A stretch of DNA of 64,000 bases from Flavobacterium sp. 270 (lineage in GTDB: Bacteria; Bacteroidota; Bacteroidia; Flavobacteriales; Flavobacteriaceae), in assembly GCF_004368785.1 (NCBI RefSeq), contig NZ_SODM01000004.1, forward strand, positions 174,521-238,520. Direction: 5' to 3'. Under the pieces are notes generated by a model. The model was not told the DNA's origin. It saw nothing but the letters and a program-made list of their open reading frames with translations, and ran no database searches. The stretch's first letter is position 1. The number at the start of each line of letters is the position of its first letter. Position numbers and translations under genes: made by a program. Shown here piece by piece: positions 3,874 through 32,348 of this stretch.

Positions 3874-4022
3874 AATAACATGTTAAACTTAAGAATACAT
3901 TTTGTTAACAAAATATTATTTCGACAAATGACAATTTTCAAAAGGTGTACGTAATACATTTATTTAAAATTGTCTTTTTTCGACTTAAAATCCTTACTTT
4001 TTCAATAGCTTAACATGTTATT
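3874..4022. promoter_or_regulatory. Dyad-symmetric region upstream of SusC
   Basis: Two nested inverted repeats share nearly one centre. The outer arms are aataacatgttaa (3874-3886) and ttaacatgttatt (4010-4022), each built on a 10-bp palindrome, taacatgtta. The inner 18-bp arms (3921-3938 and 3966-3983, core gacaatttt/aaaattgtc) match at 16 of 18 positions. A separate perfect 16-bp palindrome, attttgttaacaaaat, lies at 3899-3914, next to motif copy A. This is the only sizeable gap between the GH3 stop and the SusC start, so a SusCD-specific promoter or operator here is likely. Confidence 0.5.
3911..3932 (-). promoter_or_regulatory. Shared motif, copy A, upstream of SusC
   Basis: Read on the minus strand this is GTCATTTGTCGAAATAATAT, about 60 nt before the SusC start. 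The same sequence with few changes precedes GH92 (25394-25413), nagB (29777-29796) and GH29 (32050-32069). It contains a short direct repeat, TGTCATT/TGTCGAA, with a 7-bp period. Binding by the LytTR regulator at 26597 is inferred, not shown. Confidence 0.55.
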
Positions 4023-4107
4023 TAATCTCAACCAATTCGTCAAAAATTCAGACGTATTATTTATAAAATACTTAAAACTTTAAACATCTTATTCCTTATT
4101 ACCAAAA

Positions 4108-6768
4108 TCAATCAATAACCTTAAAACCGGCCTTTTGCTGATCTGTAGAATTTCCGCCAACCATCACTTCAAAGTCACCAGATTCTACCACATTTTTCAT
4201 TTCGCGATTCCATAATGCAAGTTCAGCAGCAGTCAAAATAAACTCAACATGTTTTGTTTGTCCTTTTTCGATGAACAACCTTTTAAAACCTCTCAACGTT
4301 TTTTCCGGCGTAGTTACACTGCTGTAAATATCATTTACATACAATTGTACTACTTCATCGCCATCAAAATTCCCAATATTTTTAACATCTACACTTACTT
4401 TAACTTCTCCGTCTTTTTTGATTTCTTTAACATTTAAAGCCAGATTAGAATATTCAAATTTGGTATAACTTAAACCGTAACCAAAAGTATAAAGCGGATT
4501 TTCGCTTTCGCTAACATATCTGTGTATCGCAGATGGTTTTTGGTTATAATATATAGGTAGCTGTCCAACTGATTTTGGAACTGTGATCGGAAGTCTTCCA
4601 CCAGGATTATAATTTCCGAATAAAACATCAGCTACAGCTCTTCCTCCGTTTTCACCTGGAAACCATCCTTCTACAATAGCCGGAATATTATCGGCAATCC
4701 AGTTTGTAGAAAGCGGACGACCGTTTAACAACACACAAACCACAGGAGTTCCTGTTTTCTGAATTGCTTCGATCAATTCTTGCTGCATTCCGTGTAAGTC
4801 TAAAGTTGCCACATCTCTGTTTTCCTCAACCAATTCGTTTGATTCTCCTAAAACTACAATCGCAACATCTGCTTTTTTAGCAATTTCTACAGCCGGCTGT
4901 AAATTCACTCTTTCCAGATTCCAACGTAAGTGCGCTCTGGCTCCCCAACCGCCTTCCCACATTTCTATGCGGACTTTGTATTTTTTACCAGCTTCTATAT
5001 TTTTTGGAGTTGTAACGATACTAGTCGCACCTTTTGTCCAGTTGTCAATAACCAATTGATCGTCAATCCACATTCTTATTCCGTCATCAGAACTTAAACC
5101 TAACCAGCCGTCAAAAGCTTTATCTGATTTTATGTAACCCGTCCAGCGAATAGAAAAATCATCATCATTAACACCAACACCCGGAGACCAAGGCCAGTCA
5201 AACTCTAATTGATTATCAATACGCGTTAATGCAGGAGTTCCTTCAACATTTCTATTATTAAAATATTCTCCTTTTAATCCGTTTTGTGCTTCATCAGGAG
5301 TAAACAAATATTTTGACGGAATTACTTGTCCCATAACGATTAACGGAACTCCTTCTTCGTACATCACATTTGTTTTTGCACCAACAACTTCTTTGATTCC
5401 TTCTAAAACTGTTTTACCCACTTTGTTATGAACTGAATATCCTCCTAAACGTGAAGCATTTGCATTTGGTCCGATAACGGCAATATTCTGAATGTCTTTC
5501 TTTAGCGGCAGCGTATTGTTATCATTCTTCAATAAAATCATAGATTTTTGTGCAGCTTCAAGAGCAATCTGTTGATTTTCTTTGGTATGAAAACGCTCTT
5601 TAATTAAATTTTTATCCGTGTATGGATTTTCAAATAATCCCAATAAAAATTTCAATCTTAAAACTCCTCCCGCAGCACGGTCGATATTTTCCTGCGTTAA
5701 TTTTTTCTCGTTAACTAATTCGATTATCGTGTTTTGCCAGAATTCATTCGTAAAATCATAAAACTGCATATCAACTCCCGCCGTAATCGCTTCTCTGATA
5801 CTTTCTTTTGGAGAATCAGAAACTTTATGTGTAGTCTGAATGTATTTAATAGCACCCAAATCTGAAACTACAATTCCTTTAAAACCCCATTCTTTTCTTA
5901 AAACATCGGTTAATAACCAGTGATTTGCAGCACAAGGAATTCCGTCTAACTCAGAATATGCGCACATTGTTCCCAATGCACCGCCTTTTGTAAATGCTTT
6001 TTGAAAAGAAGGTAAATGATCTTCGCGAGCAGAACGTTCTCCAACCAAAATCGGAGAAGAATTTCCTCCCGCCTGCGGAATCCCGTGTACAGCAAAGTGT
6101 TTTGGCTCTGCAATTATAGAACGGTCTGATTTTAAATCGTCACCTTGTAATCCTTTAATAAAAGCCAAACCAATTTCGCTGTTCAAATAAGCATCTTCAC
6201 CAAAAGTTTCGGCAACTCTTCCCCATCTTGGTTCGCGTCCTAAATCTAAATTCGGACCTAAACCAAAATGAACGCCGTGTGCTCTTGCCTCTTTAGCAAT
6301 AACTTCACCCACTTTTCCAATCATATTCGTGTCCCAGGTTGCGCCAAGACCAATATTCATTGGGAAAGCTGTACTTCCGTCATCCAGATAACCGTGAAGC
6401 ATTTCACACATAATCAATGCCGGAATTCCCCAACGGTTTCCTTTTATAACATCAGTCTGCAAATCATTAATCATTTTCGCCGAACGCGGATAAATGTCAT
6501 GAATCGCTCCAATTCCTAATTTTCCAATTTTCAAAGCCGATTTAGACTTCGAGAAATCTTCTTTTTCTTTAAAGTATTCGCCTTTGTACATATCCATCTG
6601 GCGCACCTTCTCCTCAAGCGTCATTCGGCTTAACAAATCTTTTACTCTTTCTTCTACTGGCAGTTTCGCATCCTGATACGGATATTTTTGCTGCGCCGAT
6701 CCGTGGTTAAAAAAACCTAAAGCCATTATGAAAATAATGGCTTGTTTTTTCATTCTTAATTGTAACAT
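4108..6768 (-). CDS. GH3 family beta-glycosidase with PA14 insertion
   Basis: This 886-residue exo-acting beta-glycosidase (beta-glucosidase or a related activity) has a signal peptide at 6-25 and is probably periplasmic. The start may really be Met6 (MKKQAIIFIM), because residues 1-5 precede a normal signal peptide. The GH3 N-terminal TIM barrel includes LGREPRWGR (176-184), the KHF at 223-225 and the nucleophile motif VSDLGA with Asp303. The GH3 C-terminal domain (NIAVIGPNA) is interrupted by a PA14 domain at about 500-640 (GLKGEYFNN...SSDDGIRMWIDD). A fibronectin-III-like domain closes the protein. It lies 11 nt after the GH92 stop, in one operon with GH92 and GH29. The substrate is uncertain; in this setting it could remove terminal beta-Glc, GlcNAc or Xyl. 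Confidence 0.92.
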   Translation of the reverse strand: MLQLRMKKQAIIFIMALGFFNHGSAQQKYPYQDAKLPVEERVKDLLSRMTLEEKVRQMDMYKGEYFKEKEDFSKSKSALKIGKLGIGAIHDIYPRSAKMINDLQTDVIKGNRWGIPALIMCEMLHGYLDDGSTAFPMNIGLGATWDTNMIGKVGEVIAKEARAHGVHFGLGPNLDLGREPRWGRVAETFGEDAYLNSEIGLAFIKGLQGDDLKSDRSIIAEPKHFAVHGIPQAGGNSSPILVGERSAREDHLPSFQKAFTKGGALGTMCAYSELDGIPCAANHWLLTDVLRKEWGFKGIVVSDLGAIKYIQTTHKVSDSPKESIREAITAGVDMQFYDFTNEFWQNTIIELVNEKKLTQENIDRAAGGVLRLKFLLGLFENPYTDKNLIKERFHTKENQQIALEAAQKSMILLKNDNNTLPLKKDIQNIAVIGPNANASRLGGYSVHNKVGKTVLEGIKEVVGAKTNVMYEEGVPLIVMGQVIPSKYLFTPDEAQNGLKGEYFNNRNVEGTPALTRIDNQLEFDWPWSPGVGVNDDDFSIRWTGYIKSDKAFDGWLGLSSDDGIRMWIDDQLVIDNWTKGATSIVTTPKNIEAGKKYKVRIEMWEGGWGARAHLRWNLERVNLQPAVEIAKKADVAIVVLGESNELVEENRDVATLDLHGMQQELIEAIQKTGTPVVCVLLNGRPLSTNWIADNIPAIVEGWFPGENGGRAVADVLFGNYNPGGRLPITVPKSVGQLPIYYNQKPSAIHRYVSESENPLYTFGYGLSYTKFEYSNLALNVKEIKKDGEVKVSVDVKNIGNFDGDEVVQLYVNDIYSSVTTPEKTLRGFKRLFIEKGQTKHVEFILTAAELALWNREMKNVVESGDFEVMVGGNSTDQQKAGFKVID

Positions 6769-6779
6769 AGTTGTGGTTT

Positions 6780-9032
6780 TTAATTTTGTATCACTTTGAG
6801 TGTCTTTCCATTCACAAAATCATCATGCGAAATAAAATAACCGTTTAGTGTTTTTCCGTCTAATAGAATTTTGTTAATTTTCCCGTCTTTATTGACTTCA
6901 CGTTCAATAACAATATTTTTATTCTTGTAATATTTTGAATCTAACTCAATCGTAACTTTATCAAACATTGGCGTTGTAATGGTATAAAGCGGATCGCCCG
7001 GCGAAATCGGATAAATCCCAATCATAGAATATACCAGCCACGCCGACATTGTTCCCGTATCATCATTGCCGGGAAGTCCGCTTGGTTTATTTTGGAAATA
7101 TTCTCTAACCAGTTTTTTCACCATTTGCTGCGTTTTCCATTCTTCTCCTTTTACATAATTAAATAAATAAGGATTTGCAATGTCCGGCTCGTTTGCCATA
7201 TCAAATTGTTTGATGTCGAAGATTTTCTGCAATTGTGCCGAAAAAGCTTTTTCACCGCCCATTAATTTCATCAAACCTTTAATATCGTGCGGCACCATAA
7301 AATTATACTGCCAAGCATTTCCTTCAATAAAACCAACATTTTCTTCAAAATTAGCTCCAGAAACAGGATCAAATGGTTCGTACCAATTTCCGTTTGCAAT
7401 TCTTGGGCGAAGTAATTTTAGGTTTTTATCGAATAATTTTCTGTACGATAACGAACGGTTTTTAAAACGTTCAGCATCGGCAGTTTTTCCTAACGCTTTC
7501 GCTAAAAGTGAAATCGAATAATCAGACACATTGTATTCCTGAGTGGTAGAAACCGGCCCGCGGTCGTTCGTCGTTAAAAATCCTTTTTCCATATAATCTC
7601 TAAGTCCCGGACGAAGCGGATTATTTTCGATTTGGTCTGCACCTTTCAGCATTGCTTTGTAGGCTTTCTGCACATCAAAATCGCGAATTCCTTTTAAATA
7701 AGTATCTGCAATTACAATACTTGCCGGATCGCCAACCATGGTAAAAGTTTCTGTAGAATTTAATTCCCATTTTGGTAACCAGCCGTTTTCATCATACATT
7801 TCCAACATGCTTTTTACCATATTCGATTGTTGTTTTGGATAAACCAAAGACATCAATTGATGTAAATTTCTGTAGGTATCCCAAAGCGAAAAAACAGTAT
7901 AACGCGTTCCATCGGTTTTGCCAATTTTACTTCTTTTAATTTCCGGATATTCTCCGTTATAATCATTCAAAGTATTAGGGTGAATTAGCGTGTGATACAA
8001 AGCCGTGTAAAAAATCGTTTTGTCTTCTTTTGTACCGCCTTCAACCAAAATTTTAGAAAGTTCTTCGTTCCATTCGTTGTACGTTTCTTTATAAACCGCA
8101 TCAAAAGATTTATTTCCCGTTTCTTTTTCAAGGTTTTCGCGAGCGTTTGCAATACTTACATACGAAACTCCGATTTTTACTTCAACCGTTTCTTCTTTGT
8201 CAAAATCATAAGAAAAATAAGTTCCAATGCTGTCTCCCACAACCGTTTTGATTGTGTTGTCCATCATTCTCGTTTTTCCGTTATAGCCCATCCATTGTGC
8301 TTCTATACCTTCGTATTTTGAGGGCTTTTTCCAAACACCAAATTTGGCTGCAGGTTTAGAAAATTTCGCTACAAAATAAACTGGGTAAGCGTCTTCCGGA
8401 CTGTTATAACAAAACGAACCAACGCTTCTCATTCCTTCAATTTCAGTAGAGGAAACTACTTTTACCATTGCGCCTTCTTCATTTGTTAAGCCCAGTCCCA
8501 GATTTAACAAAATGTTTGATTTCCCTTTCGGGAAAGTGAATTTGCTGACTCCAACTCGTTTTGAAGCCGTAAACGACGCCTTTACATTATATTTATCCAG
8601 CGTTACGCCGTAAAAAGCGGTTTTGGCAATTTCGTTAGAATAAGTCGAACCGTATTTTAAATGATTGGTTTCTACTTCTCCTGTTGTTGGCATTAACAAA
8701 ATAACGCCCAATTCCGGACAACCAACACCGCTTAAATTTACCTGACTAAAACCTGTAATAAATTTATTTTCGTTTACATACGGATTTGATAACCAGCGGC
8801 TGTCTTTTTCTAAAGGCAGATTCTGCGGTCCCGCCACATTAAACGGACTTATACTTGCCATACCGCGTGGCGCAATTGGCCCCGGAAATGCCGCTCCGTA
8901 ATTGGAAGTTCCAATAAACGGATTTACATAATCTGCGGGTTGCTGTGCTGCAACTTTTATATTATTAAAAAACAGCATGAATAAACATGCTGTTTTAAGA
9001 AGTATACTTTTATTTAAAACCATAGGTTTCAT
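6780..9032 (-). CDS. GH92 alpha-mannosidase (first copy)
   Basis: This 750-residue calcium-dependent exo-alpha-mannosidase would trim mannose from N-glycan antennae in the periplasm. The signal peptide ends near residue 28 (VAAQQ), and the mature protein opens with DYVNPFIGTSNYG, a GH92 hallmark. The (alpha/alpha)6 catalytic domain shows LWDTYRNLHQL, EGNAWQYNF and the catalytic-Asp motif GNDDTGTMSAW at 655-665. In the stretch where the second GH92 of this locus reads NEPSHH, this protein reads NEPDIA, so the two probably prefer different linkages. It starts 2 nt after the GH29 stop and ends 11 nt before GH3, a tight operon. Met4 is an equally plausible start. Confidence 0.93.
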   Translation of the reverse strand: MKPMVLNKSILLKTACLFMLFFNNIKVAAQQPADYVNPFIGTSNYGAAFPGPIAPRGMASISPFNVAGPQNLPLEKDSRWLSNPYVNENKFITGFSQVNLSGVGCPELGVILLMPTTGEVETNHLKYGSTYSNEIAKTAFYGVTLDKYNVKASFTASKRVGVSKFTFPKGKSNILLNLGLGLTNEEGAMVKVVSSTEIEGMRSVGSFCYNSPEDAYPVYFVAKFSKPAAKFGVWKKPSKYEGIEAQWMGYNGKTRMMDNTIKTVVGDSIGTYFSYDFDKEETVEVKIGVSYVSIANARENLEKETGNKSFDAVYKETYNEWNEELSKILVEGGTKEDKTIFYTALYHTLIHPNTLNDYNGEYPEIKRSKIGKTDGTRYTVFSLWDTYRNLHQLMSLVYPKQQSNMVKSMLEMYDENGWLPKWELNSTETFTMVGDPASIVIADTYLKGIRDFDVQKAYKAMLKGADQIENNPLRPGLRDYMEKGFLTTNDRGPVSTTQEYNVSDYSISLLAKALGKTADAERFKNRSLSYRKLFDKNLKLLRPRIANGNWYEPFDPVSGANFEENVGFIEGNAWQYNFMVPHDIKGLMKLMGGEKAFSAQLQKIFDIKQFDMANEPDIANPYLFNYVKGEEWKTQQMVKKLVREYFQNKPSGLPGNDDTGTMSAWLVYSMIGIYPISPGDPLYTITTPMFDKVTIELDSKYYKNKNIVIEREVNKDGKINKILLDGKTLNGYFISHDDFVNGKTLKVIQN

Positions 9033-9034
9033 TT

Positions 9035-10519: not shown

Positions 10520-10656
10520 CTTTAATCTAATTTATGTTTATTTAGTTTTTAGTAGTGTGTTGTTTTTTTGCCACAGATTTAAAGGATTTTTTTAAATCTG
10601 TTTGATCTTTTATAATCTGTAGCTTTATTTTTTTATTCTCAATATTATCCTCATTT

Positions 10657-10987: not shown

Positions 10988-13303
10988 TTAATTCACCACA
11001 ACTTCATCCACAAACAACCAAGAACTTTCCCCTTTCGGGCTTTTCTTTAGGTTGCCTACAATTACTTTTACGTATCTCGCGTTTTGTTTCTGAAAATTGA
11101 TTTTAAAATCTTTCAATTCCGGAAGCGGATTTACAGCATAAGCACGAGTAATTTTTCCGACTTGTTTGAAATTAGCTCCATCATTAGAAATCAAAACTTT
11201 TACTTGTATCGGAAAATTAACTCCGGCGCCTTGACTTTCTAAAGCTCCAACACTTACTTGTTCGATGCTTTCTTCTTTTTCAAGATCAACCACCAATTCC
11301 ATATCGTTTACCAGCCACGCCTGCCATTGTCCGTCGTGAAAGTTTTTAGAACCTCTAATCGTATTTACCATTGTATTGGCATCACCTTTATAACTCTGAT
11401 TATAAGGCGTTAAATATTTTACTTTGTGCGCCACCGCTTTGTGGAAAATAATAGTGTCTGTGAAAATTTTTCCAACTGGTTTGTCATTTTGAAATAAAGA
11501 AGCTTTTAAGATTGTAGTTTCTCTAAATGCAATCGGGCTTACATATTTCAATGCATGATGATCCAAAGCTTTATCTCCCAAAACATAACGAATGTCTGGA
11601 TTCGGAAACTCATTTTTTAATTCCACCTTCACTTGCTTATTCGCTAAATCTGCCGTTGAAGCAGCCGTAACCAAATAAGCACTTTTTGCATAATTGATTC
11701 CCAGATAATCGTAACGTTTTAATAATGAAAACAATCTTGTCGTAAAATCATTCCAGTTGCGTGATTCTTTCGGACTCCAGAGTGTTTCTGACAATGCCGC
11801 TAATCTTGGAAAAATCATGTATTCTGAATCTTTTGGCCCTGCAATATGTTCTGCCCACAAATTAGCTTGTCCGCCCAAAACGTGCGTTGCCAGCGTTGGC
11901 GTCATTGAACCCGTAGGATCAAATTCGTAAACTTTATTCAGCGGATTATAAGCGTCAAAAGCTAAAGGTTCTTCGTTTTGAGGGCCTTGATAAAAATTAA
12001 AATAACAAGGAGATTCTGGAGACATAATTACATCGTGTCCTTTTTCTGCCGCTTCAGTTCCAATTTTTTCGCCTCTCCAACTCATAATGGTAGCAGAAGG
12101 ATTTAGACCGCCTTCCAGGATTTCGTCCCAGCCAATTAGTTTTTTACCTTTAGAATTAACATATTTTTCAATTCGTTTAACGAAATAACTCTGCAATTCA
12201 CCAACATCTTTTAAATGTTCGTCTTTGATTCTTTTTTGACAATTTGGACATTTTGCCCAATTGGTTTTCGTAGCTTCATCTCCACCAATATGAATGTATT
12301 TTGAAGGGAAAATTTCCATCACTTCATCCAAAACATTCTGTAAAAATTCAAAAGTCGTTTCTTTTCCAGCGCAGTAAATATCTGTAATTGGCCAAAGTCC
12401 GCCAGACGGAACGCCAATTCTCTGATTGAAACAAGCCAGTTCGGGATACGCTGCAATGGCGCTGCTTACGTGCGCCGGCATTTCGATTTCTGGAATTATT
12501 TCTACATTTTTTGTAGCAGCATATTTTACGATTTCTTTTAATTCTTCCTGAGTCAAAAATCCTCCGTAAGTTCCTTTTTCGTCAGGATTTGTAGTCAGCC
12601 TTGCATTCCAGCTTGTATTTTCCTGATCTACTCTCCAAGCGCCGACTTCTGTTAGTTTTGGATATTTTTTAATTTCGATTCTCCAACCTTGATCGTCAAC
12701 CAAATGCAAATGCAGAACATTCATTTTATGCATTGCCAAACGATCAATCGTTGTCATGATGTAATTTTTATCGAAGAAATGACGTGATAAATCCAGCATA
12801 AAACCTCTCCATTTAAAACGAGGTTCGTCTGTAATCGTTAAGTTTGGAATTTCCCATTTTGCTGTAGAAATCGCAAATTTACTTTCGATAGCATCGGGAA
12901 GTAATTGTCTAAGACTTTCTAAACCATAAAGAAAACCTGCATTTCCTTTGGCAGTAATGGTGATGCTTTTTGGATTTACATCTAATATGTAAGCTTCGTT
13001 TTTTAGGTTTGGATCTGTTTTAAACTGAACAAAATTACTACCCGGAATTTGAGCCGAAATTGCCGGACGAAATCCTGCCGCAACTTCAAATTTGTTAATT
13101 AAAGCTGTTGAAGCCTCTTTTTGAAAATCGCCATTGGCAACAAACTTGGTATCTTTATTAAATTGAAAAACACCCGCTTTCATCAAAATCTGCGACGGTT
13201 TCGGAATAATTTGAATATCCTTTTCTGTATATATCTTTTGACTGTAAGCTGAACTTAAAACCGTTAGAAAGATTACAACAAGAAATGATTTTAATACTTT
13301 CAT
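10988..13303 (-). CDS. GH20 beta-N-acetylhexosaminidase with C-terminal discoidin domain
   Basis: This 771-residue exo-hexosaminidase would release GlcNAc or GalNAc from non-reducing ends of glycans. The signal peptide is 1-22 (AYSQ). A GH20b zincin-like domain (about 30-155) precedes the TIM barrel. The barrel has DDQGWRIEIKKYPKL (203-217) and the catalytic pair Asp342-Glu343 in HIGGDEATKTNW; Asp activates the substrate acetamido group and Glu is the acid/base. A CHB_HEX-like segment follows. A discoidin (F5/8 type C) fold at about 630-771 probably binds carbohydrate. It begins 5 nt after the GH2 stop, so the two act as an exo-galactosidase and hexosaminidase pair able to strip LacNAc antennae. 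Confidence 0.95.
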   Translation of the reverse strand: MKVLKSFLVVIFLTVLSSAYSQKIYTEKDIQIIPKPSQILMKAGVFQFNKDTKFVANGDFQKEASTALINKFEVAAGFRPAISAQIPGSNFVQFKTDPNLKNEAYILDVNPKSITITAKGNAGFLYGLESLRQLLPDAIESKFAISTAKWEIPNLTITDEPRFKWRGFMLDLSRHFFDKNYIMTTIDRLAMHKMNVLHLHLVDDQGWRIEIKKYPKLTEVGAWRVDQENTSWNARLTTNPDEKGTYGGFLTQEELKEIVKYAATKNVEIIPEIEMPAHVSSAIAAYPELACFNQRIGVPSGGLWPITDIYCAGKETTFEFLQNVLDEVMEIFPSKYIHIGGDEATKTNWAKCPNCQKRIKDEHLKDVGELQSYFVKRIEKYVNSKGKKLIGWDEILEGGLNPSATIMSWRGEKIGTEAAEKGHDVIMSPESPCYFNFYQGPQNEEPLAFDAYNPLNKVYEFDPTGSMTPTLATHVLGGQANLWAEHIAGPKDSEYMIFPRLAALSETLWSPKESRNWNDFTTRLFSLLKRYDYLGINYAKSAYLVTAASTADLANKQVKVELKNEFPNPDIRYVLGDKALDHHALKYVSPIAFRETTILKASLFQNDKPVGKIFTDTIIFHKAVAHKVKYLTPYNQSYKGDANTMVNTIRGSKNFHDGQWQAWLVNDMELVVDLEKEESIEQVSVGALESQGAGVNFPIQVKVLISNDGANFKQVGKITRAYAVNPLPELKDFKINFQKQNARYVKVIVGNLKKSPKGESSWLFVDEVVVN

Positions 13304-13308
13304 TTTAT

Positions 13309-16669: not shown

Positions 16670-17686
16670 TTATTTATCCCAAGACATTTTAAATTTTGCG
16701 TCTTCCATTCTGTGTCCTTTTTCATCATCAGAAACGGCAAAATTAAAACCCGATCTTAGGCTGTAACCTGCATGTTCTCCGTTTTTATTCAAAGCAATAA
16801 AACCAACTTGCAGGTATTCCATGTCTTTGTGGTTTTTGTGTTTGTTGTAAATACGTTCTGTGATTTCTTTGCAGGCATCAAAAGGCGATTTTCCCTGACG
16901 CATTAATTCGACCACCATTGCGCTTCCGGCAGTTCTAATTACGGCTTCGCCTAAACCAGTTGCAGCAGCTGCACCAACTTCATTATCCAGAAAAAGACCC
17001 GCGCCGATGATTGGGGAGTCACCGACGCGACCGTGCATCTTCCAGGCAGCACCACTAGTGGTACACCCTCCCGAAAGGTTTCCGTCTTGATCCAACATTA
17101 GCATACTTATGGTATCGTGATTTTCTATATTTATTACAGGCTTATATTTGGAGTCTTCCAGCCATTTTTTCCAGTCTTTTTCAGATTCTGGTGTCAATAG
17201 ATTTTCTTCTTTAAATCCTTCTGATAAAGCAAATTGCAATGCACCTTGTCCGGCAAGCATGACGTGCGGTGTATTTTGTAACACTCTTTTGGCAACAGAA
17301 ATCGGATGCATAATTCCTTGCAGAAAACAAACCGAACCGCAATTGCTGTTATGATCCATAATACAGGCATCTAGTGTAACTTTACCTTCACGATCGGGAT
17401 AACCGCCATACCCTACGCTTCTTACGTTTGGATCTGCTTCTGGAATTTTCATTCCGGCTTCGATAGCGTCTAAAGCTGGTTTTCCTGCTTTAAGTTGTTT
17501 CCACGATTCCTGATTTGCAGGCAGACCGTGATTCCATGTTGAAATAATGATCGGCTTTTTTTGCTTTTTTTCAGTGAATTCAACTTCCTCTTCTTTGGTT
17601 TTAGCAAAACCGCTAACGCCTAAAACAGAACTTATTGCAAGGGTTCCTAAAGTTGTTTTTTTGATAAAATCTCTTCTATTTGACAT
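16670..17686 (-). CDS. Glycosylasparaginase (aspartylglucosaminidase, Ntn hydrolase T2), Tat-exported
   Basis: This 338-residue enzyme cleaves the GlcNAc-Asn bond of glycoasparagines. The family matures by self-cleavage before a catalytic Thr. Here that site is Asp191-Thr192 in the motif NHDTISM, followed by DGNLSGGCTTSGAAWKMHGR and VGDSPIIGAGLF, which closely resemble the well-studied flavobacterial enzyme. The N-terminus, MSNRRDFIKKTTLG, is a twin-arginine signal (RRDFIKK) followed by a hydrophobic stretch, so it should be exported folded to the periplasm. It sits between a GHL10-like lipoprotein gene (90 nt upstream) and GH2. This is the strongest sign that the locus attacks Asn-linked glycans. 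The family needs free alpha-amino and carboxyl groups on Asn, so peptide must be trimmed first. Confidence 0.93.
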   Translation of the reverse strand: MSNRRDFIKKTTLGTLAISSVLGVSGFAKTKEEEVEFTEKKQKKPIIISTWNHGLPANQESWKQLKAGKPALDAIEAGMKIPEADPNVRSVGYGGYPDREGKVTLDACIMDHNSNCGSVCFLQGIMHPISVAKRVLQNTPHVMLAGQGALQFALSEGFKEENLLTPESEKDWKKWLEDSKYKPVINIENHDTISMLMLDQDGNLSGGCTTSGAAWKMHGRVGDSPIIGAGLFLDNEVGAAAATGLGEAVIRTAGSAMVVELMRQGKSPFDACKEITERIYNKHKNHKDMEYLQVGFIALNKNGEHAGYSLRSGFNFAVSDDEKGHRMEDAKFKMSWDK

Positions 17687-17776: not shown

Positions 17777-18889
17777 TTATAAAGATGCTTTTACTGCTTT
17801 TATTGTTTTTAAATTACTGTCTGATAAAGCATTTCCGTCAAAAAAAGAAACGCCTTTTGCTCCGTTATTTTTGGCTTGTAGAATAGCTTCTTTCAATTCT
17901 GCATCTGATTTTAACCCCGGAATGTAAATTCCGGTATTTACTTTCGTTTCTTTTCCCTGCAAATCTGCAACGCCTTGTTTTGTAGCGTAACCAACCCAGT
18001 CCAATTCTTCATCATAAAAACTATGGTAAATCATTGGGTAAACCTCATCGATATTCCATTTGTCCCAACGCTGGCGCACCATGTGATCTGCCATTTCCGG
18101 ATAAGGAAATACGGCTGCAGTTAATTTTACATTATGTTTATGTGCAATTTTGTAAGCGTCGTCAACAACTGCTTTTACAGCATTTAATCTGAAGTTTTTC
18201 CACTCCATATCAATAGAAGTATTGTGGCTGTTTTTTGGATTTTTATGATGTTCTTTTTCAAATTTGCTTACACACGCATCACAATAACAGAAATCAAATT
18301 GTGGCAATTCTGTATCCTGAACTAAATTGTATTTTGGCAATAAACTGATTGGCAAAAAGATATCCGGAAAACGAATGTAATCTAAATGTACACTTTCTAT
18401 TCCTTCAACTTTTGCTAGTCCTTCAACTAAACCTAAAACGTGGTTTCTGGATTCTTTTTTCGTTGGGCAAAGCCATTGATAATAATCGACATACGGACGA
18501 TTATCAAAACAAGATTTTCCTTCTTTGCTTACTTGGTACCAATCTGGATGTTGTAACGCAACTGAATCATTTGGGCGGTTCATCGCCATAATCCAGGCGT
18601 GTACTTTTAGTCCTTCTTTTTTGGCAAGGGGCACTAATCTTGCTAATAATTTTGGATCGGTTTGTGTATTGATTAAAACTTCATCGATACCACCGTCTTT
18701 GTATTTTTTGAATTCTTTTGAATATTCTTCGTTTGATTTTTTAGCATCGGCAGTAGTCCAAACGCCAAAAGTAAATTTTCCATCGGTTTTAGTTTCCTGT
18801 TTTCCACAAGAAAAAAGACTTAATGCCAAAGCTAAAAAAGCAATTTTTGACAACTGCCTAAAACTTTTATTTTGTAATGATTGTACCAT
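17777..18889 (-). CDS. Family-10-like glycosylhydrolase (GHL10) lipoprotein
   Basis: This 370-residue lipoprotein has its lipobox at LFSC (Cys28). The sequence fits the uncharacterised TIM-barrel GHL10 class: FGVWTTADAKKSN (41-53), LKVHAWIMAMNRP (94-106) and VHLDYIRFPD (167-176), where acidic residues at strand ends are likely catalytic. A CDACVSKF segment follows, and KLTAAVFPYPE and VYPMIYHSF lie further on. The first 23 nt overlap the end of the CBM9 gene, which suggests translational coupling. The substrate is unknown. Its place beside CBM9, GH130 and glycosylasparaginase suggests a role on the chitobiose core or on mannose-bearing fragments, but that is inference. Confidence 0.75.
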   Translation of the reverse strand: MVQSLQNKSFRQLSKIAFLALALSLFSCGKQETKTDGKFTFGVWTTADAKKSNEEYSKEFKKYKDGGIDEVLINTQTDPKLLARLVPLAKKEGLKVHAWIMAMNRPNDSVALQHPDWYQVSKEGKSCFDNRPYVDYYQWLCPTKKESRNHVLGLVEGLAKVEGIESVHLDYIRFPDIFLPISLLPKYNLVQDTELPQFDFCYCDACVSKFEKEHHKNPKNSHNTSIDMEWKNFRLNAVKAVVDDAYKIAHKHNVKLTAAVFPYPEMADHMVRQRWDKWNIDEVYPMIYHSFYDEELDWVGYATKQGVADLQGKETKVNTGIYIPGLKSDAELKEAILQAKNNGAKGVSFFDGNALSDSNLKTIKAVKASL

Positions 18890-25340: not shown

Positions 25341-25393
25341 ATCAAAACAATATTAATTTAACTTTAAATTTAGATAAACTCAACTTTTATTAA

Positions 25394-25413
25394 AATAAAT
25401 TTAGACGGATGAC
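25394..25413 (-). promoter_or_regulatory. Shared motif, copy B, in the GH92/histidine-kinase divergent region
   Basis: Read on the minus strand this is GTCATCCGTCTAAATTTATT, about 53 nt before the GH92 start. It matches copies A, C and D at GTCAT, GTC and AAAT. Because the kinase gene starts at 25471 on the other strand, one site could control both directions and give autoregulation. Confidence 0.5.
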
Positions 25414-25470
25414 ATTTAAACGGAGTTAAACACCAAAAAATAGTAATAAAATATATTTTAAAATGCCACT

Positions 25471-26529
25471 ATGATTTTCAATTCAAACAATCCTTACAAG
25501 GTGCCGATACGCTATCATGTTTACTTTTGGCTGACTTATTTTTTGTTTAATACTTTCCGTTGGGGAAGTTATTTTAACGATTATCTCTATTCGCTAAAAA
25601 CAAACTTATTGGGGTTTCCAATTCACATGGCTTTGTGTTATTTAAATATTTTAGTTTTGATGCCGTTTTTAGTTTATCGCAAAAAATACATCTTATATGT
25701 ACTCGCTGTTTTGTCGGCCATTTTTGTGATGGTTTTCATCAAATTTAACCTTACTTATTTACTGATTACGCATAACGTCTGGCCAGAAGGACCGGAAACG
25801 ATTACAAAACTTACCTTAAATTATACGATTGATATGATGATGGGCGAACTCTATGTAATTACGTTTGTCACGGCTATAAAAATTACGTTGGATTTCTTGA
25901 AAGAACAAAGAAGGGTTACGGATCTGGAGAAATCACAACTGGAAACAGAATTGCTTTTTTTGAAGTCGCAGATTTCGCCGCATTTCTTCTTTAATACTTT
26001 AAATAATATTTATTCTTTATCGGTAGAAAAATCAAATAAGACTCCAAAAGTTGTTTTAAAGCTTTCTGAATTAATGCGTTATATGCTTTATGAAACTAAA
26101 GGCAAAAAGCAAAGTTTAGAAAATGAAATTATGTGTATTCAGAATTATCTGGATTTGGAGCGCATTAGAAATGATGATCGATTGGAAGTAAATATTTCTA
26201 TTTCGGGCGATATTCACGATAAAGAAATCTCTCCGGTTTTATTGCTGACTTTTGTTGAAAATGCTTTTAAACATGGCGTTAATAAAAACACGGGAAATGT
26301 AACTATAGACATTAGTTTTAAGATAAAAGAGGACTATCTTTATTTTACCATTTCGAACCCAACGCCAGAAATTACCGTACATAAAGACAATTTTAACAAG
26401 TCAAGTGGTATAGGTATTGAGAACGTAAAAAAAAGACTTGAATTAGGTTATAATAAAAGTGACTATAAGCTTTCATTTAAAAATAAAAAGAATATTTTTG
26501 TCGTAAAGCTAGTCATAAAAGTCGCATAA
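25471..26529 (+). CDS. LytS/YehU-type sensor histidine kinase
   Basis: This 352-residue membrane kinase has four hydrophobic segments in the first 140 residues (about 15-30, 47-68, 73-100 and 115-140). A coiled-coil linker follows (about 141-165). The His_kinase domain (PF06580 type) has phospho-acceptor His171 in SQISPHFFFNTLNNI. The ATPase part shows VENAFKHGV and a GIGIENVKKRLEL G-box. There is no obvious periplasmic ligand domain, so the signal may be membrane-borne or intracellular. It diverges from GH92 and is followed after 67 nt by its LytTR response regulator. Controlling the surrounding glycan locus is a reasonable inference. Confidence 0.93.
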   Translation: MIFNSNNPYKVPIRYHVYFWLTYFLFNTFRWGSYFNDYLYSLKTNLLGFPIHMALCYLNILVLMPFLVYRKKYILYVLAVLSAIFVMVFIKFNLTYLLITHNVWPEGPETITKLTLNYTIDMMMGELYVITFVTAIKITLDFLKEQRRVTDLEKSQLETELLFLKSQISPHFFFNTLNNIYSLSVEKSNKTPKVVLKLSELMRYMLYETKGKKQSLENEIMCIQNYLDLERIRNDDRLEVNISISGDIHDKEISPVLLLTFVENAFKHGVNKNTGNVTIDISFKIKEDYLYFTISNPTPEITVHKDNFNKSSGIGIENVKKRLELGYNKSDYKLSFKNKKNIFVVKLVIKVA

Positions 26530-26596
26530 CCCCAATGCTGGCTTTTTCTAAAATTATACCTACAAAAACCTTACCGGCCAATAAAAGTATACAGAA

Positions 26597-27310
26597 ATGA
26601 AAATAAAGTGTTTGATTATCGATGATGAGCCTTTGGCAATAAACGTTATTAAAAGTTATATCGAGCAAATTGAAGATTTAGAATTAATAAACACTTTCAG
26701 TAATTCTATTGAGGGTTTAAATTTCTTAAAAAACAATACGATTGATGTAATCTTTCTGGACATCAATATGCCTGTTCTTGATGGTATAAATTTTATAAAA
26801 AGCTTAGAAAATCCACCTTTATTAGTCATTACAAGTGCTTACGATCAATTTGCTATAGAAACTTACGAGCTGGATGTTCTGGATTATCTGGTAAAACCAA
26901 TTGAGTTTCCGCGTTTAATGAAAGCCGTTAACAAAATCAACAAACGCCTTAATAATACAAGTAAAGCTCCATTAGAAACCAATAAAGAAAATGCTTTTAT
27001 TTTTGTAAAGATTGACAAGAAGAAAATGAAGAAGATTTTTCTAAACGAAATCTTAGTCATCGAAAGCTTAAAGGATTATTTAAAAATAAGCACAACTTCC
27101 GGCAAATTTATCATACACAGCACACTTTCTGATTTTACCAATTTATTACCCGAAAGAGATTTTATAAGAATACACCGATCGTACACAATCGCCATTGACA
27201 AAATTGATGCTGTTGAAGGAAATAGTATTGAAATTGAAGGTCTTCGCTACGTAATTGGAAGATCTTATATTGATGAAGTGAAGCAGAAGATTTTGAATTC
27301 TTCTATATAG
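26597..27310 (+). CDS. LytTR-family response regulator
   Basis: This 237-residue regulator has a receiver domain (1-120) with the acidic pair in IIDDEP, phospho-acceptor Asp55 in IFLDINMP and Lys100 in YLVKPIEF. The C-terminal LytTR DNA-binding domain (about 135-235) shows ILVIESLKDYLKISTTSGK, LPERDFIRIHRSYTI and IGRSYIDEVKQKI. It is the cognate partner of the kinase encoded 67 nt upstream. It is the only transcription factor visible in the window, so it is the prime candidate for the motif found before SusC, GH92, nagB and GH29. Confidence 0.94.
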   Translation: MKIKCLIIDDEPLAINVIKSYIEQIEDLELINTFSNSIEGLNFLKNNTIDVIFLDINMPVLDGINFIKSLENPPLLVITSAYDQFAIETYELDVLDYLVKPIEFPRLMKAVNKINKRLNNTSKAPLETNKENAFIFVKIDKKKMKKIFLNEILVIESLKDYLKISTTSGKFIIHSTLSDFTNLLPERDFIRIHRSYTIAIDKIDAVEGNSIEIEGLRYVIGRSYIDEVKQKILNSSI

Positions 27311-27325
27311 TTTTTTAACCGCAAA

Positions 27326-27666: not shown

Positions 27667-27693
27667 CTTAGCCGTAAAATTTCACAAATAAAT

Positions 27694-27731
27694 AAAAACA
27701 AAAAAAATGCAGCCAACCACGGCTGCATTTT
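27694..27731 (-). terminator. Intrinsic terminator of nagB
   Basis: Perfect 11-bp arms (aaaatgcagcc at 27704-27714, ggctgcatttt at 27721-27731) enclose a 6-nt loop. On the minus strand a long T tract follows (complement of aataaaaacaaaaaaa). It lies about 70 nt beyond the nagB stop and may also end the plus-strand regulator transcript. Confidence 0.75.
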
Positions 27732-27801
27732 CATTCAATATAGGTAACTAACCAAATAAACCATGAATAGTTTATTATCTTTATTGATCAACAAAAATGA
27801 T

Positions 27802-29715
27802 TTAGAAATGATAACGTTTAAAAGCTTCTATAGCCGAGTAATCAGCCAATCCTAAATCGTGGTATTTTTTTGCTGTCAATCTATTTCTGTCTTCAACTCG
27901 TACCCAAAACTCCCTGCTGTCATCACCCTGAAACATTACGCCGTCTTTTTGAGACTGGTGATAAAATATCGCATGACGTTTTTTAAGAACCTGGTCCGGA
28001 CTCATTGGTACAGCCATTTCTATTTGGTACGATTCCCACTCATGCCAAGCGCCTCTGTAAAGCCAAACCCAGCAATCATCCATATAACTATTATGTTTTA
28101 ATCTTTTTAAAGCTTCAAACAAACTATCCAGACAAACTTTATGCGTTCCGTGTGGATCTGCAAGATCTCCGGCAGCATAAATTTGATGTGGTTTTATTCT
28201 CTCGATGATATCGCACATAATTTCAATATCTGCTTCACCAAGATTATTTTTCTTTACCGTTCCAGTTTCGTAAAAAGGAAGATCAAGGAAATTTACATTA
28301 GAATCTGGCAAACCTAAATATCTTGTTGCTGCCAGCGATTCGCTTCTTCTAATTAATCCTTTTAATTTTCTAACTTCTAATAAATCAATATCATTGCTCT
28401 TTTTGTTTTTCAAAAAGTTAATGATCAGTTCAGATTCTGGAGAATTTGTGTTTAATGCTTTCGAAATCTCTGCAAATTTTAAAGCTTCTTCGTTTGAAAC
28501 TGCAATATTTCCAGACGTTTGATATGCAATATGCACATCGTGCCCCTGCTCTACCAAACGGTCAAAAGTACCTCCCATAGAAATAACGTCATCATCTGGG
28601 TGCGGGCTGAAAATAATAATTCTTTTTCTTTCCGGTGTGGAACGTTCCGGTCTGTAAGTATCATCAGCATTTGGTTTTCCGCCCGGCCAGCCAGTGATCG
28701 TCTGCTGCATCTTGTTAAACATCTTAATGTTCAAATCATACGCAGTTCCTTCTTCAGTCAGAAGGCTTGACATTCCATTATCGTTATAATCTTTATCTGT
28801 TAATTTAAGAAAAGGTTTACTCGTAAGTTGACTTAACCACGCCACCGCTTTCAGTTTTAATTCATCCGTCCAAATCACAGATTTTACTAACCAAGGTGTT
28901 TTTACACGCGTTAATTCAGACGAAGCTTCTGTATCTAAAACAAAAGTAGTATTGTTATGTTCTTGCAGATAAGTTGCCGGAACACGAGAAGAAACCTGTC
29001 CTTCTATAGTTTCCTGAATAATGCCCGCTTTGCTGATTCCCCAGCCCAGAAGTACAATTCTTTTGGCATTACGAACCGTTCCAATTCCCATTGTAATGGC
29101 TTTTCTGGGAACATTATCAATTCCTAAAAAAGAAGAAGCAGCATCTATACGCGTTAAGTGATCTAAAGTAATACTTCTTGTACCAGAATTAACGTGAGAT
29201 CCTGGTTCATTAAAACCAATATGTCCAGTCCTTCCAATTCCTAAAAGCTGAAAATCCAGTCCTCCGTAAGACTTAATTTTCATTTCATAATCAATACAAT
29301 ATTGTTGTAATTCCTCTGCGCTTACTTTTCCGTCTGGAATATTAATATTTTCTGGATGAATGTTTACATGATCAAAAAGATGCTCATGCATAAAATGAAA
29401 ATAACTCTGAATGTTATTTTTATCCATCGGATAATATTCATCTAAATTGAAGGTTACTACGTTGGCAAAACTCAGTCCTTCTTCTTTATGCATTCTTACA
29501 AGTTCTTCATACACTTTTACAGGAGAAGATCCTGTTGCAAGACCTAAAACACAAGGTTCGTTTAACTCGTTTTTTCGCTGAATTAAGTTTGCAATTTCCT
29601 GTGCAACTAATAAAGAAGCTTCTTGAGAAGAGTCAAAAATTACGTTGTGGATTTTTTCAAAACGCGTTTCCTCAAATTTCCCAGCTTCTCTAAAACCTAT
29701 ATCTTCTTTAATCAT
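27802..29715 (-). CDS. nagB: Glucosamine-6-phosphate deaminase fused to LmbE/PIG-L-like domain
   Basis: This 637-residue cytoplasmic protein joins two domains. Residues 20-270 are NagB, which converts glucosamine-6-P to fructose-6-P and ammonia. Its motifs are GLATGSSPVKVYEEL (58-72), FNLDEYYPM with Asp92, and LLGIGRTGHIGFNEPGSH (157-174). Residues about 365-600 resemble LmbE/PIG-L zinc deacetylases, with the metal motif SPHPDDDVISMGG and later DPHGTHKVC. Long NagB-LmbE proteins are known in Bacteroidota; the role of the second domain is not established. It feeds GlcNAc freed by the locus into glycolysis. It has its own promoter region with a copy of the shared motif and ends at a good terminator. 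Confidence 0.92.
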   Translation of the reverse strand: MIKEDIGFREAGKFEETRFEKIHNVIFDSSQEASLLVAQEIANLIQRKNELNEPCVLGLATGSSPVKVYEELVRMHKEEGLSFANVVTFNLDEYYPMDKNNIQSYFHFMHEHLFDHVNIHPENINIPDGKVSAEELQQYCIDYEMKIKSYGGLDFQLLGIGRTGHIGFNEPGSHVNSGTRSITLDHLTRIDAASSFLGIDNVPRKAITMGIGTVRNAKRIVLLGWGISKAGIIQETIEGQVSSRVPATYLQEHNNTTFVLDTEASSELTRVKTPWLVKSVIWTDELKLKAVAWLSQLTSKPFLKLTDKDYNDNGMSSLLTEEGTAYDLNIKMFNKMQQTITGWPGGKPNADDTYRPERSTPERKRIIIFSPHPDDDVISMGGTFDRLVEQGHDVHIAYQTSGNIAVSNEEALKFAEISKALNTNSPESELIINFLKNKKSNDIDLLEVRKLKGLIRRSESLAATRYLGLPDSNVNFLDLPFYETGTVKKNNLGEADIEIMCDIIERIKPHQIYAAGDLADPHGTHKVCLDSLFEALKRLKHNSYMDDCWVWLYRGAWHEWESYQIEMAVPMSPDQVLKKRHAIFYHQSQKDGVMFQGDDSREFWVRVEDRNRLTAKKYHDLGLADYSAIEAFKRYHF

Positions 29716-29776
29716 GTTTTCGGTTATTCAATTAATTAATGTAGGATAAAATTAAGTTTTTGTTAAATAGCTGCTA

Positions 29777-29796
29777 TTATAATTTCGACTAATAAC
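29777..29796 (-). promoter_or_regulatory. Shared motif, copy C, upstream of nagB
   Basis: Read on the minus strand this is GTTATTAGTCGAAATTATAA, about 61 nt before the nagB start. It keeps the AGTCGAAAT core of copies A and D. It links the catabolic deaminase to the same putative regulon as the glycosidases. Confidence 0.5.
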
Positions 29797-29859
29797 AAAT
29801 CATCATCGGTAAAAGACAAAATTTTAAACTCAAAATATACTTTCGCTTCCGCTAAAATT

Positions 29860-31956
29860 CTACTCTTCTACAACATTAATCTCGGCAATAGAAACCGACT
29901 GGCCTTTGCTCACTGCGGCAGTCGCAACAAAACGTAAATATCTTGCCTGCACTCCTACAAAAAGTTTAACCTGTTCAATCGGATTATGTTTGATGTTTGA
30001 GAATTCGCCTTCCGATTGTTTCGTCCAATTTACATTATCAGAACTGGTGTAAAATTCGTAGTTAGAAATCAGGTTTAAATTGCTTCCAACCTGCTGCGGT
30101 ATATAGGTAAAACCTTTTATTTTAAGTAAAGTTCCCATATCAATAATTACTTCTTGCGGTAATTTATTGGTTTCGCTTCCAAAACCCCAATCTGTATTTG
30201 GATTACCGTCTATAATTCTATCAGCCGATTTTAAATCTCCGCTAGAAATGGAAATAATTTTCCAGTTTTCTTTAGAAATTCCATACTTCGCCGTTTTCAT
30301 CGCGCTATTTATTTTTTCTTTTGAATTTCTGGCAATTGCTTTAATTTCAACCGCTTTATTATATTGAAATGGTTTTGTATATAAAGTACTTTTTTCTGAA
30401 GGTTTATTTCCATTTAAAGTATAGTAAATCTGATTTCCTTCTTCAGACTTCAAAGTAAATAAACCATTTTTATCTCGCTGAATTTCTGGTATACGCACAA
30501 AAGTTGGTGCATTATAAGCCTGAATATTAGATATTACAATACTTGCTTTAGAATCTGTAATATTAATACGAAGTGCCAAAGCTTTTACCCGATCTAATCG
30601 TAAAATTCTTTTATAACCAATCGTAGTTTCGCTGGCAATAGTTTTCCAGTTTCCATCAACTTTGGCTTCAACAGTAAAAGCTTTTACACGCTGTCCTAAT
30701 TTTATATCTTCCTGAAGTAAAACCCTGTCTATATCTGTTGGTTTTGCAAACTCAAAAGTAATAGAAGCTTTAGTAACATTATCGTCTGTTGCCCAATACG
30801 AGTTTTTATTTCCATCGATAACATTCTTTGGAGCAAATTCAATACTTTTTCCTCTTACATTGTCGGCGCTGACTTTTGTTCCTGCTAATAATTCTTTTTT
30901 GAAATCACTTTTAATAGTTGCAACCAATTCTTTAAGCCTTGCCTCATCATTTTCATTTACCAAGCCGCGTCTATCAACTGGAAGATTCAACAATAAAGTA
31001 GCATTACGGCCAATCGATTCATAATAAATATCGACCATTTCGTCAAGCGAACGCACTTTGTCGTCTTCAACCGAATGATAAAACCATCCCGGTCTAATCG
31101 AAACATCCGCTTCTCCCGGAACCCATTTTTCGCCATCTTCATGTCCCGACATAAATTCGGTATAATGTACTTTTCCGGCCAATTCATCTTTCTGGCGCAG
31201 TAACGACCAATTGGTTTTTCCGGCGCGTCCGTCTTCGTTTCCAATCCATCTGGCTTCAGATGGGCCAACTCCCCAAACTAAGGTTTTTGGGGCTAACTTG
31301 TAGATTAATTTATACGTTTCGTCCCAATTATAATACGTAAGCGTGTTGATTTTTCTGGTTTCGTTTGCACCGCCGTAATAACCATCGCCACCGTTTGCAC
31401 CATCAAACCACATTTCGAAAACATCACCATAATTGGTCAATAATTCTTTTAGCTGATTTCTGAAATAGGTAACATATTCTGGTTTTCCATAATCAGCACT
31501 ATTTCTGTCCCAAGGCGAAAGATATAAACCCAATTTTAAATTGTATTCTTTGCAGGCTGCAGCCAACTCTTTGACCACATCTCCTTTCCCATTTTGCCAA
31601 GGCGAATTCTTAACCGAACGTTCTGTATATGCCGACGGCCATAAACAAAAACCATCGTGATGTTTGGCAACCAGAATAATGCCTTTCATTCCGGCTTCTT
31701 TCACTACACGCGCCCACTGACGAACATCTAATTGCGTTGGATTAAATAATTGCGGAGATTCGTCGCCAAAACCCCATTCTTTATTGGTAAAAGTATTTAA
31801 TGAAAAATGCACAAAAGCATAAAATTCCATTTCCTGCCAATCGACTTGCTTTTGAGTCGGAAGCGGTCCAAAAGGTTTTGGCGCATTGGCTAATTCCTGA
31901 CTATTACTACTTGATATTATGCCGAATAGACATAAAGAAAGGAAAATATATTTCAT
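29860..31956 (-). CDS. GH29 alpha-L-fucosidase with two discoidin domains
   Basis: This 698-residue fucosidase has a signal peptide (1-20, SNSQ). The GH29 barrel (about 25-350) has EFYAFVHFSLNTFTNKEWG (44-62), AKHHDGFCLWPS (97-108) and nucleophile Asp185 in EMWFDGANGG. This is the variant usually linked to alpha-1,3/1,4-fucosidases. After it come a discoidin (F5/8C) domain (about 365-480), a small chitobiase-like beta domain (about 490-550, IYYTLNGNKPSEKSTLY) and a second discoidin domain (about 560-698). Its promoter region bears a copy of the shared motif, so it probably belongs to the same regulon though it lies outside the main operon. Its modular make-up differs from the single-domain GH29 at 9035. 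Confidence 0.92.
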   Translation of the reverse strand: MKYIFLSLCLFGIISSSNSQELANAPKPFGPLPTQKQVDWQEMEFYAFVHFSLNTFTNKEWGFGDESPQLFNPTQLDVRQWARVVKEAGMKGIILVAKHHDGFCLWPSAYTERSVKNSPWQNGKGDVVKELAAACKEYNLKLGLYLSPWDRNSADYGKPEYVTYFRNQLKELLTNYGDVFEMWFDGANGGDGYYGGANETRKINTLTYYNWDETYKLIYKLAPKTLVWGVGPSEARWIGNEDGRAGKTNWSLLRQKDELAGKVHYTEFMSGHEDGEKWVPGEADVSIRPGWFYHSVEDDKVRSLDEMVDIYYESIGRNATLLLNLPVDRRGLVNENDEARLKELVATIKSDFKKELLAGTKVSADNVRGKSIEFAPKNVIDGNKNSYWATDDNVTKASITFEFAKPTDIDRVLLQEDIKLGQRVKAFTVEAKVDGNWKTIASETTIGYKRILRLDRVKALALRINITDSKASIVISNIQAYNAPTFVRIPEIQRDKNGLFTLKSEEGNQIYYTLNGNKPSEKSTLYTKPFQYNKAVEIKAIARNSKEKINSAMKTAKYGISKENWKIISISSGDLKSADRIIDGNPNTDWGFGSETNKLPQEVIIDMGTLLKIKGFTYIPQQVGSNLNLISNYEFYTSSDNVNWTKQSEGEFSNIKHNPIEQVKLFVGVQARYLRFVATAAVSKGQSVSIAEINVVEE

Positions 31957-32348
31957 CTGGTTTTGGTTAGGTTTGTTATCCTGAGCGAAGTTGAATAATC
32001 GCTTATAGAGTCTGGAATATAAATTTATGCTAAATGAATATGTTATCGCATAAAATTTCGACCAATGACGATTATAAACGAGTTTTGGTAAAAAATGTAT
32101 ATTGTTATTATATTTTCGTTATTTTACTTACACACATGCTGGCACGGGCGTCTCGCTCGTGAACGCAAGTTATTCTCGTCCTCAAATAAGTTTACATATT
32201 TGTTTCTATTAAAGTAACAAAGAATAAATAAACCTTAACTATTTTAAAATTGACTTTTATTAATTTTATTGCGGGCACGAGCGGGACGCTCGCGCTAGCG
32301 TAAAGCTGGATGAATTAAAAAATTTCATAATCACTTCATTTTTTCAAT
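31957..32348. other. Divergent intergenic region with GC-rich inverted repeat
   Basis: These 392 bp separate the minus-strand GH29 from the plus-strand metalloprotease gene, and no gene is seen. It holds the shared promoter motif at 32050-32069. An inverted repeat of about 20 bp has arms at 32142-32161 (gcacgggcgtctcgctcgtg) and 32276-32295 and stands out as GC-rich in AT-rich surroundings. Confidence 0.6.
32050..32069 (-). promoter_or_regulatory. Shared motif, copy D, upstream of the modular GH29
   Basis: Read on the minus strand this is GTCATTGGTCGAAATTTTAT, about 93 nt before the GH29 start. It is nearly identical to copy A in front of SusC. Confidence 0.55.

Follow-up and report, generated by a model that had tools for sequence, protein, structure and literature searches.

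In Bacteroidetes, the control of N-glycan loci is usually discussed in terms of regulators other than LytTR proteins, and LytTR regulators of the AgrA/ComE type use a pair of half-sites that precede the promoter and are spaced by about two turns of the helix. Here we describe a 64,000-nucleotide stretch of the Flavobacterium sp. 270 genome (contig NZ_SODM01000004.1, positions 174,521 to 238,520; "the window" below) in which a LytS/LytTR pair lies within a putative N-glycan locus and a common motif precedes four genes, encoding a SusC-like receptor, a GH92 enzyme (GH92b), NagB and a GH29 enzyme (GH29b). The motif is very probably read by the neighboring two-component regulator, and we consider it highly likely that LytS/LytTR activates the four N-glycan promoters through two half-sites, spaced by ~21 bp, upstream of what would be weak promoters. 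The proposed layout is that of the AgrA/ComE type; the half-site sequence differs, and the distal copy is degenerate or looks inverted at two of the four promoters.

Two described systems are comparable. F. johnsoniae lacking cusS-cusR no longer grows on chitin and has no ChiA, as reported in PMC5127042, which fits the role of an activator for CusR. CusS/CusR resembles the system described here in its LytS/LytTR build, identified by Pfam in the copy of this genome, its company of SusC/D and nagB genes, its related half-sites and, for 14 of 26 last copies, the 26-bp distance to a TAnnTTTA box; it differs in its half-site (GYYGTTnGTWTAA, compared with GTYRTYnGTCKAA here), its clear 21-bp tandems and its association with chitin rather than N-glycan enzymes. 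A term search of the main text of PMC5127042 found none of the words promoter, motif and LytTR. YpdB of Escherichia coli, acting at yhjX, is likewise a LytTR response regulator and an activator with two tandem half-sites, and its half-site GGCATTTCAT resembles GTCATTnG; according to PMC4847170 it differs in having a single direct target gene and a pyruvate signal. A limited search of the open-access literature returned no paper visibly describing the present motif or a LytTR-controlled N-glycan locus.

A core motif confined to one locus

The 15-bp consensus core, GTYRTYnGTCKAAWW, stands upstream of SusC/D, GH92, nagB and GH29 (Table 1), with 0, 2, 1 and 0 mismatches to GTCATTnGTCGAAAT at the SusC, GH92b, nagB and GH29b sites, all on the minus strand. 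A preliminary description of this DNA had claimed a motif shared by these four promoters, and all four cores were found. At up to 2 mismatches the window contains 8 core matches, compared with 0.74 expected from shuffles. The four matches outside these promoters are one within the SusD coding frame (685-699) and three copies of a dispersed repeat containing CTCCTTCGTCGAAAT; the three repeat copies are also the only matches in a second gene cluster of the window (35424-63535), in line with the earlier statement that the motif was not found before any gene there.

The CTCCTTCGTCGAAAT repeat occurs at 41663-41677, 51484-51498 and 51563-51577 and at several dozen other places in the genome, often as inverted pairs ~75-80 bp apart. 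Its resemblance to part of the motif inflates the counts of loose scans.

Across the 5.73-Mb genome there are only two exact core matches, both in this locus (the SusC and GH29b sites). Allowing 1 mismatch gave 7 matches (reversed-pattern control, 3); allowing 2 gave 95 (control, 76), a level at which the pattern is unspecific. The GH92b site, with 2 mismatches, is therefore not distinct by pattern alone and is secured by its conservation in orthologues. Since the loose scan yields many copies of the CTCCTTCGTCGAAAT repeat, it was replaced by models that include the flanks. A sequence-only model from 37 sites placed the four sites at E ≤ 4.5e-9 in their own genome, with the next-best candidate at 0.0115; a model that left the own genome out (33 sites) placed them at E 5.7e-11 to 5.6e-8, with the next-best at 0.0108 (in both searches, the 150 top-ranking of about 14,800 first-look candidates were scored). 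Within this genome the motif is restricted to the one locus, and the concern that it might be common in the genome was not borne out, as the four sites stand out in these scans.

Further candidates were rejected. The best of them (C1:494166, E 0.011) has no ORF (open reading frame) of at least 120 amino acids on its strand within a 3-kb locus, and C4:87955 (E 0.11-0.14) is without a -7 box. Three sites with 1 mismatch (C1:4512, C1:1020366 and C2:617662) lie inside coding frames, and a fourth (C7:222650) is intergenic but without a -7 box.

Promoter layout

The preliminary description overlooked a -7 box downstream of the core as well as a half-site upstream of it. TAnnTTTA lies 26 or 27 bp past the core in 60 of 62 orthologous promoters from the four gene classes (49 at 26 bp, 11 at 27 bp), the exceptions being GH29b of genome G051 and GH92b of genome G024; its background in intergenic DNA of the window is 27 in 11,538 strand-positions. 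The 62 promoters were chosen by resemblance to the motif, whose presence is thus by construction; the -7 box was outside this selection. Left out were nagB of G024 (a 57-61% paralogue without a site) and the SusC match of the same genome (30%), while SusC of G073 and GH29b of G056, G050 and G024 were absent from the fetched stretches. Because the four classes otherwise look unrelated, the fixed spacing between core and box is strong evidence of a shared promoter architecture, with the proviso that orthologues within one promoter class are not independent. In many genera beyond Flavobacterium, the GH92b box is AAAATTTA or AATTTTTA at an unchanged distance.

According to PMC6847099, F. johnsoniae promoters have a -7 element, TAHHTTTG, with a nearly invariant G at -5. 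The boxes found here read TAnnTTT followed by A in the last position, where that consensus has G. With the box set at -12 to -5 as in PMC6847099, the core spans roughly -53 to -39, immediately before the usual -33 region, whereas the distal half-site spans roughly -74 to -62. On the same basis the SusC transcript is predicted to start near 3879 and those of GH92b, nagB and GH29b near 25360, 29742 and 32015, and the predicted leaders measure 27, 20, 27 and 59 nt for SusC, GH92b, nagB and GH29b, respectively. Since their boxes lack the almost invariant G, these promoters are expected to be weak without an activator.

A nearly fixed distance to the start region would also suit a motif that is the promoter proper, recognized by an alternative or extracytoplasmic-function (ECF) sigma factor, rather than an operator. 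This seems highly improbable, given that a primary-sigma-like box (TAnnTTTA; cf. TAHHTTTG in PMC6847099) is present 26-27 bp downstream in all but two of the 62 promoters, and that a Pfam scan of 34 window ORFs revealed no sigma factor.

The distal half-site

A second half-site ~21 bp upstream of the core is clear as a direct repeat at nagB and less clear at GH92. At nagB it is a 13-bp copy (e.g., GTCTTTTGCCGAA...GTTATTAGTCGAA). Within the 80 family loci described below, -21 was the top direct offset for nagB (48 distinct sequences, score 7.6), the SSF class (7, 2.7), unclassified sites (4, 2.3) and GH92b (61, 0.9); for GH92b it ranked third in the smaller genus set. Permutation tests of the distal repeat were exploratory, with settings that differed between a stringent and a softer run: 1267 of 5000 permutations reached the score of the direct repeat under the stringent matrix (not significant), and under a softer matrix with two more sites 9 of 5000 did so for the direct repeat at -21 and 0 of 5000 for the inverted repeat at -24, summed over classes.

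The preliminary description regarded the site as unusual, with a 7-bp period. If the lone 15-bp core, with its two GTC steps 7 bp apart, were the whole site bound by LytTR, the far stronger conservation of the core than of the distal half (degenerate at SusC and GH29) would be readily accommodated; however, the direct half-sites 21 bp apart at nagB, modestly at GH92 and plainly in the chitin-locus paralogue (see below) make this rather unlikely. The 7-bp tandem is a feature within one half-site. The ~21-bp spacing is itself ordinary, since LytTR sites as described in PMC4847170 consist of a pair of 9-11-nt repeats, direct or inverse, with a gap of 11-13 nt. We therefore regard canonical LytTR geometry as the most likely arrangement, with the distal half-site partly demonstrated at the four promoters, and the locus appears to be a new regulon under a known family of regulators, not a novel type of site.

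Conservation in the genus and family

LytTR orthologues (84-97%) occur in 16 of 80 other sampled genomes of the genus, and ~40 kb were fetched around each (30 kb for one). Gene order is mostly kept, G024 being rearranged, and the motif lies upstream of SusC, nagB, GH29b and GH92b wherever the orthologue is within the fetched stretch; its absence from orthologous loci that have the regulator, which would have spoken against the preliminary description, was not seen. The SusC core has 0 mismatches to GTCATTnGTCGAAAT in 15 of 16 SusC matches (the 16th is the 30% match of G024, with a site further upstream), and most GH92b orthologues share their own conserved variant, GTYRTCCGTCTAAAW. Of the 81 genus genomes, the 17 with a LytTR orthologue all contain the composite of core, spacer and box, and none of the 64 others does; the reversed composite matched once in all 81.

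The family set comprises 80 loci from named Flavobacteriaceae that carry LytTR relatives of 57-99% identity, the best 80 of 443 confirmed relatives, from Flavobacterium, Tenacibaculum, Wenyingzhuangia, Tamlana, Maribacter, Gelidibacter, Aquimarina, Sinomicrobium, Leeuwenhoekiella and other genera. A degenerate core matched 174 times in these 1.62 Mb (4, 4 and 4 times in three shuffles) and is present in 78 of the 80 loci; there were 0 matches in 349 kb, some of it overlapping, of other LytTR or nagB-paralogue neighborhoods. The genes downstream are GH92b (66), nagB (48), GH29b (36), SusC (11), SSF (7), LytS (1) and GH3 (1), with none assigned for 4. Together with the genome scans, these orthologous loci support the earlier notion of a locus-confined regulon tied to the LytS/LytTR pair.

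Several observations weigh against activation by LytS/LytTR through paired half-sites. Two family loci (L203 and L221) have no core, and the family and genus sets share some species and are not independent. Beyond Flavobacterium the -7 box often departs from TAnnTTTA, and a scripted search for core, TAnnTTTR and start succeeded in only 55 of the 80 family loci. The SusC (11) and GH29b (36) classes score best with an inverted copy at -24, weakly (-0.6 and -1.5), and in the genus set the inverted arrangement at -24 outscored the direct one at -21 when the classes were summed. Finally, nagB orthologues of at least 87% were found solely in sampled genomes that have the LytTR gene, and the association between motif and LytTR at the genus level is confounded because the regulator and target orthologues co-occur.

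Relocated genes that retain the motif relieve this confounding in part. A GH29 gene in G050, separated from the locus by over 100 kb, keeps its site, and SusC genes with an altered placement carry it in G024 and in the Tamlana-type loci L204 and L209, at 237 to ~325 bp before the ORF (~325 bp in G024).

G024 also has a sulfatase gene (L085 14891-16522) preceded at ~265 bp, near 16788, by the motif with an inverted distal half; this gene is a possible extra member of the regulon.

The co-occurrence of regulator and targets across the sample, and a link between site and LytTR that is drawn from sequence comparison, would also be compatible with a different regulator encoded elsewhere (e.g., an N-acetylglucosamine-responsive repressor) reading the sites, the LytTR pair being merely a neighbor. 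We consider this unlikely: the position of the site suits an activator, the genome scans place the motif in this locus only, and a sister motif arranged in the same way is present in the chitin locus, where the closest LytTR paralogue is encoded.

A sister motif in the chitin locus and other LytTR systems

This paralogue, of the CusR type and 48% identical, is in a locus with the order transporter, LytTR, LytS, SusC, SusD, GH18 (Pfam). Its GH18 protein matches PDB 6XYZ (E 4.5e-166), which we take to be FjChiB from the F. johnsoniae chitin utilization locus study (PMC7426924). Among 13 CusR-type loci, the sister motif GYYGTTnGTWTAA has 39 copies at up to 1 mismatch, compared with 10 for the reversed control. 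All 13 neighboring pairs less than 60 bp apart are direct repeats at 21 bp, and TAnnTTTA occurs at +26 after 14 of the 26 last copies, the remaining 12 having none within 50 bp. The exact doublet has two matches in the genome, both in the chitin locus; since the reversed control matched 4 times when up to 2 mismatches were allowed, this confinement rests on exact matches only.

In the chitin locus of this genome (L093, G000:C3:604039-624038), the 21-bp tandem half-sites are at 11918-11951, before SusC, and at 18118-18151, before a further gene, with TAnnTTTA 26 bp past the last tandem copy. Paralogues of the nagB/PIG-L (deacetylase-like) gene, with ~70% identity, are found near the CusR-type regulator in several genomes.

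LytTR proteins are common in this genome (20 PF04397 matches, 19 above the family cut-off). Around 18 further LytTR genes (chitin locus excluded), 13-mers at the corresponding place upstream of -7-like boxes were most alike when spaced by 21 bp (mean score 0.09 vs. -2.09 or lower at other spacings; 7 of 94 boxes over threshold vs. 0 to 4). There was no 21-bp peak at 55 control boxes elsewhere (mean -3.14, other spacings up to -0.85), and a second control, from the window beyond 32.5 kb, had 6 boxes only and was too small. The scan was exploratory, its settings being chosen during the work, following a first look. As a tentative generalization, which we find plausible without yet favoring it, flavobacterial LytTR regulators may follow one promoter grammar, in which 13-bp half-sites 21 bp apart, the proximal one beginning at about -53, precede a -7 box and each paralogue has its own word.

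Individual LytTR neighborhoods contain repeats of this kind. Beside another LytTR gene, L275 (G000:C6:186000-195000) has near 6150-6240 an almost perfect doublet, GGCGTTGGTATAA / GCCGTTGGTATAA, with a 20-bp spacing, followed by TACATTTG and a gene start. Direct repeats at 21 bp, of quite unlike words but at the same distance from a -7 box, are seen near 2060-2145 in L279 (TCAGAACA) and near 310-400 in L264 (ACAAYTCAGT).

Gene content of the window

N-glycan loci are recognized by a set comprising SusC/D, a mannosidase, a beta-mannosyl phosphorylase, a hexosaminidase, a fucosidase and an amidase of the Asn-GlcNAc (asparagine-N-acetylglucosamine) type. The corresponding gene set is present here (two GH92, GH130, GH20, two GH29, GH2, GH3, asparaginase_2, SusC, SusD and BNR_2), and the substrate is accordingly predicted to be an N-glycan. 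At and beyond the left window edge, Pfam identified SusD, a BNR_2 sialidase-like protein and an M28 peptidase. The same-strand run that begins with GH92b is possibly one transcript from the GH92b promoter.

Table 1. Sites and genes of the putative N-glycan locus, in window coordinates.
Feature	Position	Strand	Remarks
Core half-site GTCATTTGTCGAAAT, SusC upstream	3918-3932	-	0 mismatches to GTCATTnGTCGAAAT
-7 box TAAGTTTA, SusC promoter	3884-3891	-	26 bp past core
Core half-site GTCATCCGTCTAAAT, GH92b upstream	25399-25413	-	2 mismatches; kept in orthologues; in divergent GH92b/lytS gap
-7 box TAAATTTA, GH92b promoter	25365-25372	-	26 bp past core
GH92b distal half-site	25422-25434	-	Direct copy 21 bp upstream of core; modest score
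Core half-site GTTATTAGTCGAAAT, nagB upstream	29782-29796	-	1 mismatch
-7 box TAATTTTA, nagB promoter	29747-29754	-	27 bp past core
nagB distal half-site GTCTTTTACCGAT	29805-29817	-	Direct repeat 21 bp upstream of core; -21 is the top direct offset in genus and family sets by a wide margin
Core half-site GTCATTGGTCGAAAT, GH29b upstream	32055-32069	-	0 mismatches
-7 box TAAATTTA, GH29b promoter	32020-32027	-	27 bp past core
SusC-like receptor	757-3852	-	SusD next, running off left window edge
Run of GH92b, SSF symporter, GH130, CBM9, GHL10, asparaginase_2, GH2, GH20, GH29a, GH92a, GH3	4108-25340	-	Same-strand run
LytS-type histidine kinase	25471-26529	+	Pfam His_kinase PF06580
LytTR response regulator	26597-27310	+	Pfam Response_reg and LytTR; proposed activator of the four promoters
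nagB, glucosamine-6-phosphate deaminase fused to PIG-L domain	27802-29715	-	Pfam
GH29b alpha-fucosidase with carbohydrate-binding domains	29860-31956	-	Pfam

The regulator, with receiver and LytTR domains, adjoins the LytS-type kinase (Pfam). In agreement with the preliminary description, this pair is the only regulator found in the window: no other regulator, hybrid two-component system, ECF-sigma/anti-sigma pair or sigma factor was found in the 34 ORFs scanned (44 were listed; the remaining 10 overlap these in other frames), nor was a hybrid two-component or ECF-sigma/anti-sigma gene found by Pfam in 6 ORFs left of the window. Searching the PDB with the LytTR domain yielded a single match, weak and partial.

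The second, separate cluster contains GH2, GH78, GH95, GH43 and GH28 genes and one for a BT_1020-like protein, a content suggestive of a pectin or rhamnogalacturonan locus. Among its Pfam-scanned ORFs no regulator was found.

Proposed mechanism and significance

We propose that the LytS/LytTR pair responds to N-glycan breakdown by sensing one of its products or intermediates, whereupon phosphorylated LytTR would bind the two half-sites at each of the four promoters; being ~21 bp apart, these would lie on the same helix face. With A in place of the G at -5, each promoter would be weak without a bound activator, and in the simplest reading LytTR bound beside the -33 region rescues it. Bound LytTR would thus turn on SusC/D, the GH92-led enzyme run, nagB and GH29 jointly.

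This amounts to a concrete operator and promoter layout, predicted and testable, for an N-glycan locus under a LytS/LytTR pair. It also connects the locus with CusR, a chitin regulator that has been studied genetically, and hints at a way of decoding LytTR regulons across the Flavobacteriaceae. If the shared grammar is true, the regulons of many of the ~20 LytTR proteins in this genome would be readable from sequence.

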